Positions 27,649-30,974 of a stretch of DNA of 45,565 bases are shown one piece after another; position 1 is the first letter of the stretch; every line of letters begins with the position of its first letter. Location: positions 1 to 45,565 of the forward strand of contig JAUXFX010000003.1 of NCBI GenBank assembly GCA_030622635.1, read 5' to 3'. The position numbers and the translations under genes were made by a program. The notes beneath the pieces are model-generated. The model was given only the letters and a program-made list of their open reading frames with translations. It did not search any database and had not been told where the DNA came from. This DNA comes from Bacteroidota bacterium (lineage in GTDB: Bacteria; Bacteroidota; Bacteroidia; Bacteroidales; JADFUO01).

Positions 27649-29940
27649 TTAATCCGTATCATAATCCGGTAAACAATACCTGCAGCCATTATAATTATGT
27701 TTAATGGCACGTGGGATTTCTTTGTAGGCAATTTTATTTTTGTTATTCATCTTTTTTACCCATTTGCAATTATTGTTATGCAGTTCTTTTGTGTTTTTAT
27801 TTGCTATAAATGGATGCTCTCCCACAGCAAGTAATTGAGTAACACGACCCATTTCGAGGTTATCAACTAATTGTGCTACTGATATCTCATATCCTCCGTC
27901 CGGTATTGAATCAGGCAAGATAAATTCCAGTTTGGCAATACAATTATCATTTGATTTTAATTTGATATTACGCAAATAAGATTTTTTCCCGGATAAGACA
28001 TAATATTCATTGTAAAGTGTTGATTCGTTAATTTTTGATAAACCATCAGTTGAAGCCTCAATACACAATCTTTTTAATATCTTCAAATTCACTTCCATAC
28101 CTGTTGGTAAAGAACTCAGATCAATTTGAAGGTCTGAATAAATATTATTACCTGACCATCCTTGTATATGGAAATTAAGACTGTTAACTGAGCCTGCAAA
28201 CATATCTATTACATCAAAGTTTTTCCATGTTGCATTATTATTTTCCCTAATGAAGTTGTAAAAATCATTCATCGAAAGAATAGTGGCAGGGTCTGGTGCA
28301 GGATCATTACCACTGTTTACCAATGCAATAAAACAATAATGTCCCTGAGCAGGAATATCATCTGAAGGCCAAACCACAGGACCAACAACTTTAACACTAT
28401 TTGAAGGAACAGATGGAATAGTTATTTGATCAACAAGATTCCATGAAGCCGGAGTTGGAAAAGTTGAAGGGTGTGACCAATATACGGTGGCTGTTCCTCC
28501 GGTAGCATTATTTCCTCTGTTATGAACTCTGAGATAGATGTAATTGTTTTGTCCGAATTCCACCTGTTCACCAAGATTTGCCTGGCTAAGTGCTAAAGTA
28601 GTTCCCAAAATAGCTTCGGGATCGAGTAATTCCTGATTAAAAATTATTACATCAGGGCTGCATGAAATACCACCGTCAATAAGAGGTTCGCGGCCATGAT
28701 CTTCAAGATTATCTCGTAAATATAAGTCATGAGCAGGATAACCAAGAAAAATATTATCTCCTGCCCCTGCAGGTGATTCAGCTTCTACCGGTGTATCCGA
28801 ATAACCCCAATGCAGAACTACAACATCATCAGCGTAAGTATGTGCTTCAGCTGCAGAGATCCTTCCGTCAGTATTTGTGTCAACCACCTGTGAAAGAGCG
28901 CCACCATCTGCATATTGACCAGTTACTGCAGCAATCCAATCCAATGCAAACGGGTCAAAATCTGCCCCTCCGTTAGAATTTCTATCTTCTTCGCATGCTG
29001 CTGAAAAATGAGTCCATTTTGCAGTGCTGTTATTAATTACTGCATTTTCAAATCCTCCGGAATGACATTGTTCCATCATCACCATTAAAACAGCAAATCC
29101 AGGTAACTCAGCAAGTTTATTCCCAAAATCAGTGGAAGAATATTCATCCCATTCTATGTTATTATAGGCACATAAACCACTTATCGGGTATAATGGACTT
29201 GGTGGGCCATATCCATGATTATTTGTATGTATAAACAGAAAATCATCTTTTTTTAATTTTGTTTTCAGATCATCTATGGCATTTTCAAGAGCAACACCTG
29301 TTCCTTCATCATCAACAGGCATCTGGTAAGCCGTATTATCTCCAGGCCAATTATTGACCGGTTTTGGGCCACCATTATAGTTTAGTGTGCCATCATGATT
29401 TAAAACTGTGATCTTATTGGCATCAAAGCCGTAAATATCAATAAGGGTCCGGTAAAGAAATTCCATGTCATTAACATGTCTGTTGTTTGACTCACCGGAA
29501 AAAAATATAGCATACCTGTCTCCCCTGGCATTATTTAATGCATTTGTTATTGCCGGAATAGGTGAAGTAGAAAGTTTCCTGCCTTTTAACACATTTTCTC
29601 TTTTGACAGGAGTGTGAATATCTTCAAAATTTTCCGGATTTCTTATAAATTCTGCCGGAGGGAAGCATGCTTTTATTCTATTATATATTTCTCCGGTTTC
29701 AGAATCACATAAAATATGTTCACAGGGATGTGCCCAGTTTAGAGTTGGAGCCTCATCAATAAGAACAAAGGCAGTTTTTTTGGGGATGTCAATTTCTTGT
29801 AAACCTGCATTCATTTTAACTCCGGTATCAATTATATCATTCTTTAAATAAATATTGAATGCTTTCTGACAGTTCATCCTTCTCAGTCCACTAAGAACTT
29901 CATTCTTAATTTTACTTTTAATTTCATTTTTAATTTTCAT
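27649..29940 (-). CDS. Multidomain clan CD (caspase/C13-like) cysteine protease
   Basis: The 763-residue protein has no signal peptide, so it is probably cytoplasmic. Residues 20-110 form a domain with IDEAPTLNWAHPC that recurs in the neighbouring small protein. The protease core (about 120-400) opens with DRYAIFFSGESNNRHVNDM and carries the His-Gly of the catalytic dyad at 242-243 (NNHGYG) and the nucleophile Cys292 in EQCHSGGF. A canonical EF-hand loop (Asp354, Asn356, Asp358, Ser362, Glu365) follows, suggesting calcium control. Residues 415-550 look like a CARDB/Ig-like domain. The C-terminus has His721, Cys725, Cys753 and Cys756, like the Ada-type zinc-binding module. Its start has a strong Shine-Dalgarno sequence, unusual for this genome. 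Substrate unknown. Confidence 0.85.
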   Translation of the reverse strand: MKIKNEIKSKIKNEVLSGLRRMNCQKAFNIYLKNDIIDTGVKMNAGLQEIDIPKKTAFVLIDEAPTLNWAHPCEHILCDSETGEIYNRIKACFPPAEFIRNPENFEDIHTPVKRENVLKGRKLSTSPIPAITNALNNARGDRYAIFFSGESNNRHVNDMEFLYRTLIDIYGFDANKITVLNHDGTLNYNGGPKPVNNWPGDNTAYQMPVDDEGTGVALENAIDDLKTKLKKDDFLFIHTNNHGYGPPSPLYPISGLCAYNNIEWDEYSSTDFGNKLAELPGFAVLMVMMEQCHSGGFENAVINNSTAKWTHFSAACEEDRNSNGGADFDPFALDWIAAVTGQYADGGALSQVVDTNTDGRISAAEAHTYADDVVVLHWGYSDTPVEAESPAGAGDNIFLGYPAHDLYLRDNLEDHGREPLIDGGISCSPDVIIFNQELLDPEAILGTTLALSQANLGEQVEFGQNNYIYLRVHNRGNNATGGTATVYWSHPSTFPTPASWNLVDQITIPSVPSNSVKVVGPVVWPSDDIPAQGHYCFIALVNSGNDPAPDPATILSMNDFYNFIRENNNATWKNFDVIDMFAGSVNSLNFHIQGWSGNNIYSDLQIDLSSLPTGMEVNLKILKRLCIEASTDGLSKINESTLYNEYYVLSGKKSYLRNIKLKSNDNCIAKLEFILPDSIPDGGYEISVAQLVDNLEMGRVTQLLAVGEHPFIANKNTKELHNNNCKWVKKMNNKNKIAYKEIPRAIKHNYNGCRYCLPDYDTD

Positions 29941-29944
29941 TATT

Positions 29945-29951
29945 ACCTCCT
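29945..29951 (-). promoter_or_regulatory. Strong Shine-Dalgarno sequence of the protease gene
   Basis: On the minus strand AGGAGGT lies four bases before the ATG. Other genes in the window start without such a site, as is usual in Bacteroidota. Confidence 0.8.
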
Positions 29952-30174
29952 GTTTTAAGTTTATTTAAATATTAATACACTTTTATTTTTAATAAATTCA
30001 GTATTAGTTTACTATTATTAGTTCCGAAAATTGATAAAAGGTAACCCCGTAAGAAGAAAAAAATTGAATTTAAAATCAATCTAAATAATAATATAATAAA
30101 TCGGATTTTATATAAAAGGAATTATTCGTAGAAAATATTTTCGTAGAAAGTATTTTTAGCGAATGTTAAGCTCA

Positions 30175-30537
30175 CTAATCATAAACATTAAAATGCCTGT
30201 CATCAGAAGGTTTTGATCCATATCTTAAGAGCACTCTGTAGCTATCCGGATAATCTTCATAAAAAACAGGAAACTGTTCATGAAACAGTTCGGTTTCAAA
30301 TGTCTTGGAATCAATCAGAATATATATGCATGAATGCCCCCAGTTTAGGCGAGGTTGGAGATCTATAAATGCCAAATAGCTGGGTTTTTTTACTTCAATA
30401 CTCTTTCTGCCAATATTGATAATATCTCCATTTTTGTATGGTTCATAATTCAAATAAATAATTGATTGATCTTTTTGCTCTTTTGTCAAATGGTTCAGGA
30501 TTATTTTAAGTATTTCTTCTTTATTAAGATTTTCCAT
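30175..30537 (-). CDS. Small protein related to the N-terminal domain of the adjacent protease
   Basis: The 120-residue protein has no signal peptide. Residues 48-91 align with residues 51-95 of the protease encoded next door: both contain I-D-x-x-P-x-L-N-W-x-H-x-C followed by I-L-x-D-S-x-T and, further on, F-P. The region before it (YKNGDIINIGRKSIEV) also matches the protease (KNDIIDTGVKMNAGLQEI). Conserved Trp66, His68 and Cys70 suggest a binding site. The first 30 residues form a charged helix absent from the protease. A full promoter lies at 30563-30593. The protease gene follows 234 bp downstream on the same strand. It may regulate or be processed by the protease, or be its solo paralogue; this is inference. 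No named family is recognised. Confidence 0.75.
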   Translation of the reverse strand: MENLNKEEILKIILNHLTKEQKDQSIIYLNYEPYKNGDIINIGRKSIEVKKPSYLAFIDLQPRLNWGHSCIYILIDSKTFETELFHEQFPVFYEDYPDSYRVLLRYGSKPSDDRHFNVYD

Positions 30538-30562
30538 TTTAAATTATTATTATTGATTTATG

Positions 30563-30593
30563 CAAATATAGTAAATTAATAGCTGAAAAGCAA
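30563..30593 (-). promoter_or_regulatory. Bacteroidota-type promoter for the small protease-related gene
   Basis: On the minus strand TTG (30593-30591) is followed after 20 bp by TATATTTG (30570-30563) and C, a full consensus match. Transcription would start near 30556, about 19 bases before the ATG at 30537. Confidence 0.65.
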
Positions 30594-30601
30594 GCATATA
30601 A

Positions 30602-30974
30602 TTAGTTATACTCAAGTTTTAATCCAACACCCACTTCTCTAAGATTTATTACTTTTTTTAGAATAAAATGTTAAAGGATGAGCTATGATGATGGGATTCT
30701 TGTGATTTAAGTTTTCTATTATTGCTTCTGTATAGAGTCTGATCAGAGGATCTAAACCCCAGGTATGATCGAGGTGTCCATGAGAAAGAACCACAAAATC
30801 TAAATTTAATAGATCAATATTTAGCTTTTGTGCATTTTTAATAAATACATCAGAATATCCTAGGTCGAATAAAATTTTATTACCTTCATCTTCAATAAAA
30901 TAAGATACTCCTGGTTCGCCATAGAAATACCGGTCAATCAGAGTATTATTATCAACAAGGACTGTTAATTTCAT
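30602..30974 (-). pseudogene. Truncated metallo-beta-lactamase-fold hydrolase gene
   Basis: The open frame (30974 to 30639) gives 111 residues that match the start of MBL-fold hydrolases of the dihydropterin-phosphate synthase-like group: LVDNNTLIDRYFYGEPGVSYFIEDEG and the metal-binding motif SHGHLDHTWG near 64-73. These enzymes are normally more than twice this length, with further His and Asp metal ligands downstream. Here the frame ends soon after IIIAHPLTFYSKK. A run of seven A bases on the minus strand (30653-30659) sits just before the stop; dropping one A would continue the frame for about 16 residues (VINLREVGVGLKLEYN) to a stop at 30602. Even so it would be too short, so part of the gene is lost. 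Confidence 0.75.

Follow-up and report, generated by a model that had tools for sequence, protein, structure and literature searches.

The minus strand of the 45,565-nucleotide stretch analysed here (the window) encodes a non-secreted C13/legumain-like protease of 763 residues (27649..29940; identified by its ORF, homology and Foldseek matches) and, upstream of it, a protein of 120 residues (30175..30537) that, by homology, model and dN/dS, is a free-standing copy of the front domain of that protease. Since this two-gene pair was found in five distant lineages, including an archaeon, the small protein is probably a dedicated regulator of the protease, most likely its inhibitor. A regulator was among the roles that the preliminary description of this DNA had suggested for it, and the recurrence of the pair in five lineages makes this the best reading.

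BLASTP aligned the small protein with residues 8–84 of the protease at 34% identity (E=6e-11, a single comparison). The homology of the two regions proposed earlier is thus real, while the shared stretch proved longer than the residues 54–95 originally assigned to it. A profile made from the N-domains of non-secreted proteases alone recovered the small protein at E=1e-13 from the 338 ORFs of the window; the absence of such profile similarity had been named beforehand as a possible refutation. In the reverse direction, a profile of the small proteins matched the protease at 2e-16, and one built from the secreted relatives alone detected both window proteins (4e-12 and 6e-11). The maximum score obtained with 5000 shuffles of the small protein was 7.1 bits against 45.6 bits for the real sequence; these values together with the profile matches indicate that the similarity is not due to chance.

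The front domain, also called the WxHPC domain, occupies approximately residues 1–115 of the protease (29590..29940, minus strand, delimited by homology to the small protein). Structures of the two proteins were modelled separately as single chains, using an alignment that omitted the plasmid-record sequence. The front domain was predicted as a helix and beta strands (pLDDT mostly 65–92), and for the small protein (pLDDT 82) helices were predicted to precede the beta strands, the elements coming in the same order as in the front domain. Neither had a match in Pfam, NCBIfam or PHROGs, and the best hit of the small protein fold in the PDB (E=0.07) was not significant; this beta-rich, putatively regulatory domain appears to be undescribed. 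D62, W69, H71, and C73 were invariant in the fused front domains of 20 relatives; the conserved Cys was lost in the free copies of Chloroflexota. The free copies do not contain the H-x-P-[IV] segment, which in the protease connects the front and catalytic domains, therefore their function may differ from that of the cis domain.

The catalytic domain, defined by legumain profile and structure matches, extends over residues 138–400 or so (28740..29530, minus strand). The caspase/C13-type dyad recognised previously, His242-Gly and Cys292, was confirmed, but the family is C13 of the legumain type and not that of the true caspases. H242-G243 aligns with the NHGG motif of legumain, and C292 of the E-x-C motif with its EAC motif, as does E290 with the EAC segment and R154-H155 with the NYRHQAD segment. 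H242-G243 and C292 (MEQCHSGGF) were invariant across 20–21 relatives, and Ser322 and neighbouring motif residues were likewise invariant in 20. The window protease itself gave nothing at E<=1 with the Pfam C13 profile. Its archaeal orthologue, 48.5% identical to it across 98% of the length, scored 32 bits (cut-off 22.8), and the Chloroflexota, Elioraea and Frankiaceae members scored 35.8, 38.2, and 22.9 bits, respectively. Profiles of the protease family matched plant and animal legumains (best E=7e-20), and in a Foldseek search with the protease model ranks 1–10 were all legumains or asparaginyl endopeptidases (E 1e-8 to 2e-7). The window protease therefore has the dyad, the R-H and E-x-C motifs and the fold in common with legumain and family C13, and it may also have an asparaginyl (Asn/Asp-type) cleavage specificity. 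Eukaryotic legumain has its pro-domain at the C-terminus; the window protease differs from it in bearing the N-terminal WxHPC domain and in being accompanied by the free copy.

In contrast to the secreted relatives, the N-terminus of the window protease has no hydrophobic stretch, and the enzyme has no export signal. Among the accessory elements described earlier, an EF-hand-like loop (DTNTDGRISAAE) is present at residues 354–365, whereas the Ig-like domain and the Ada-like zinc module both remained below every Pfam threshold in the window protease, and for the latter even the archaeal orthologue gave only a weak resemblance (E=0.15). The C-terminal region (residues 405–763; 27652..28728, minus strand) is variable between members and is missing in those of Chloroflexota, Elioraea, and Frankiaceae. 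In the predicted structure, pLDDT was mostly 65–95 in the N-domain and the catalytic domain and <50 beyond residue 402. Residues 405–719 are also found, at 31% identity, in a plasmid-encoded S8 peptidase of Paracoccus (window 27652–28728; L053 4582–6984), and a shorter stretch of them occurs in a Photobacterium metalloprotease. Judging from these matches, this segment seems to be an accessory module, without a Pfam match, that serves proteases of differing catalytic types.

Scanning of approximately 85,000 species genomes revealed the front domain in Bacteroidota, Chloroflexota, Elioraea, Frankiaceae, Delongbacteria, Phycisphaerae, Verrucomicrobia, Kiritimatiellia, and Lentisphaerae. It preceded a C13-type domain in all loci read except for one secreted free copy (L037 5734–6450, genome G494), which has a T9SS-like C-terminal region and is the sole match to the domain in its genome. 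The preliminary description had proposed repeated adjacency in unrelated genomes as the test of a functional unit, and such adjacency was found in Bacteroidota, Chloroflexota, Alphaproteobacteria, Actinomycetota, and on an archaeal plasmid. The free copy adjoined the protease in 12/12 non-secreted loci or records, namely in four genomes of the window's genus, three of Anaerolineae, three of Elioraea, one of Frankiaceae, and on plasmid pMETHO01 of Methanomethylovorans hollandica. The seven non-Bacteroidota genomes and pMETHO01 each contained exactly two matches to the domain, lying side by side. Both genes were present in every carrier of the non-secreted enzyme among the roughly 1,600 genomes and records searched. 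In the secreted members, the domain occurs only within the protease and no neighbouring free copy is present. The gene order varies, with the free copy downstream in Chloroflexota and upstream in the other pairs, and the gap between the two genes is 234–393 bp within the window's genus and 50–88 bp where it was measured elsewhere.

The cassette is rare: only 1 to 3 carriers, including the genome at the centre of the search, were found per sampled group (395 Bacteroidia, 400 Chloroflexota, 154 genomes of one Chloroflexota order, 299 of the Elioraea order, and 246 Actinomycetota), and the phage and plasmid libraries yielded no pair besides that of the archaeal plasmid. The small gene of the archaeal pair (L052 5534–5908) is missing from the PLSDB gene table. 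The window's own genome also encodes a secreted protease paralogue on contig 147 (L017 7607–10006) that has an in-frame stop right after the signal peptide, and a related gene in another genome (G002) is situated at the end of a contig and shows no obvious intact start.

The strict genome-by-genome co-occurrence of the two genes and their co-inheritance would also suit a free copy that is an indispensable subunit of the protease or its folding chaperone and that binds substrate or stabilises the fold without any silencing, and pro-regions commonly serve as folding chaperones. Nevertheless, the secreted relatives, which have the same fused domain, manage without a free copy, and we regard this explanation as unlikely.

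In the phylogenetic tree, the front domains of the non-secreted proteases formed a single clade (93/90) with the free copies outside it. The small proteins of the window and the archaeon were sisters (94/86), and so were the front domains of their proteases (97/91), although the tree includes several long branches and the exact branching order of the free copies is unsure. Pairwise scores agreed with this topology, as the window small protein scored 168 with its archaeal counterpart and 109 with its own protease. Such parallel grouping indicates that the pairs are not repeated recent duplications, and these sister relations rule out a recent tandem duplication. Thus, the free copies do not derive from the protease of their respective hosts. 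The tree and the pairwise scores together indicate that the duplication is old and that both genes travelled together; the cassette is an old one that spread horizontally as a unit.

Both genes are under purifying selection. The dN/dS values were 0.16–0.34 for the small gene and 0.08–0.32 for the protease gene in the window's genus and 0.09–0.18 and 0.05–0.10, respectively, in Chloroflexota; across three groups, the small gene ranged from 0.09 to 0.35. These values, and the fact that five lineages have kept an ancient copy, exclude that the small protein is a functionless relic of duplication. That it serves as a substrate, decoy or bait would be in line with the use that small free domains may find as baits and with the loss of the conserved Cys in the Chloroflexota copies, but no conserved cleavage site of the legumain type was apparent when the alignment of the free copies was inspected by eye, and we consider this group of explanations, the relic included, very improbable.

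Upstream of the pair, the window contains a gene of the metallo-beta-lactamase fold (30639–30974), which is broken by an internal deletion of 467 bp. The gene is intact (279 aa) in two relatives. A three-gene operon including this gene was rejected because of its deletion in the window genome and its absence from the corresponding locus of a third relative (G003). A scan for terminators was negative, and the number of promoter-like matches was close to chance level.

With PADLOC-DB, neither window protein nor the archaeal and Chloroflexota proteases gave any match, and the same was true for the neighbours tested in the window and at loci L030, L038, and L020, while one HEAT-repeat gene in the vicinity of the archaeal pair hit HEAT-type PADLOC models. 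The pair was therefore rejected as a known anti-phage defence system; a defence role is possible but unsupported. These results also bear on the idea of an adaptor or activator role, in which the free copy would gather proteases, or link them to a sensor, by like-with-like domain contacts in the manner of EADs and death-fold domains. The front domain is indeed a portable module occurring both fused and free, and EADs operate on the principle that the same operon encodes additional copies of the domain fused to the effector (PMC8195603). However, the free copy carries neither a sensor nor any further domain, a conserved third gene was not observed, the predicted fold is chiefly beta whereas most EADs differ, and apart from the HEAT-repeat gene the proteases and tested neighbours had no PADLOC match, thus we find an adaptor rather unlikely.

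A free copy of 111 residues was detected on the 122-kb contig of an uncultivated virus (IMGVR_UViG_3300032053_000013; L080 5001–5333), the only one of five viral contigs scanned to have one. It was recognised by the small-protein profile (2.5e-11) and the secreted-domain profile (1e-11), and an ATGA junction marks the overlap of its start with the end of the gene before it. The contig encodes a portal and virion structural proteins, and a search with the catalytic profile found no C13 protease on it, although the virus record may be incomplete. The phage-borne free copy would fit a counter-regulator, but a single case proves nothing. We hold it quite improbable that the pair is a mobile protease–inhibitor cassette of bacteria and archaea that serves as an internal suicide or defence switch and that one phage or more would use a free copy of its own to silence the enzyme during infection. 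At another locus (L081 1765–3162), a secreted relative adjoins transposable-phage-like genes; its catalytic His is replaced by Tyr and its Cys by Ala, and it is likely a pseudoenzyme.

Taking the pair as a protease with its inhibitor, we propose that the front domain, as a prodomain, would keep the protease inactive, and the free copy would bind the catalytic domain in trans, either at the seat of the front domain or in place of it after cleavage. The free copy would then be a dedicated inhibitor shielding the cytoplasm, and its loss or capture, or a signal of the cell, would release Asn/Asp-type proteolysis within the cell. The inhibitory nature of the front domain, the inhibition in trans by the free copy, the substrate specificity and the trigger for release are inferred. 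In favour of this scheme we counted the homology, the adjacency in five lineages, the restriction of pairing to non-secreted enzymes, the co-inheritance, the purifying selection, and the legumain-type domain; against it, the gap in the window's genus, whose length leaves room for a separate promoter, the lack of H-x-P-[IV] in the free copies, and the secreted free copy at L037. On balance, we give about even chances to the complete reading, in which an old, spread two-gene cassette would combine a silencing prodomain with a dedicated trans inhibitor. If it holds, family C13 would gain a branch of non-secreted prokaryotic enzymes whose dedicated partner is derived from their own front domain, and the reading offers a testable claim on how a legumain-type protease is safely contained in cells and on the control of caspase-like proteases in organisms other than eukaryotes.

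The preliminary description had held that no system with this pairing was described. This stands for C13, for which no counterpart of such an enzyme/free-domain pair was found in the literature, but not for other protease families, where SpeB–Spi and the I29 inhibitors embody the same idea. The I29 propeptide-like inhibitors are animal cathepsin inhibitors of helical fold. Examples are CTLA-2alpha, crammer, and BCPI, which inhibit cysteine proteases (PMC4089206). The small protein resembles them in being a free homologue of a protease pro-region (here the front domain, for which inhibition is proposed), but has no sequence relation to them in Pfam. The propeptides of gingipains, which belong to clan CD as well, inhibit their own enzymes in trans (PMC3677877).

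In EAD conflict systems, including the caspase EACC1 (PMC7159879, PMC8195603), a non-catalytic domain is similarly both fused to a clan CD protease and encoded separately; however, the domain is a different one here, no NTPase or sensor partner was seen, and the defence-gene context is not conserved. Pfam and NCBIfam revealed no known EAD domain in the small protein, and the EACC1-caspase model had a single, weak match, to a secreted relative (17.8 bits against a cut-off of 140). Spi, encoded beside SpeB (a C10 protease of Streptococcus pyogenes), is described as a propeptide-like inhibitor (Kagawa 2005, as summarised in PMC2873492). As in that system, the small protein is encoded beside the protease and resembles a region preceding the catalytic domain, there the pro-region and here the N-terminal domain. 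Unlike the papain-like, secreted SpeB, the window protease is a clan CD enzyme without an export signal and its domain is unrelated; being C13 by both profile and fold, it does not belong to the SpeB–Spi family. As a precedent for a protease whose gene is flanked by that of a free propeptide analogue, SpeB–Spi nevertheless comes closest.
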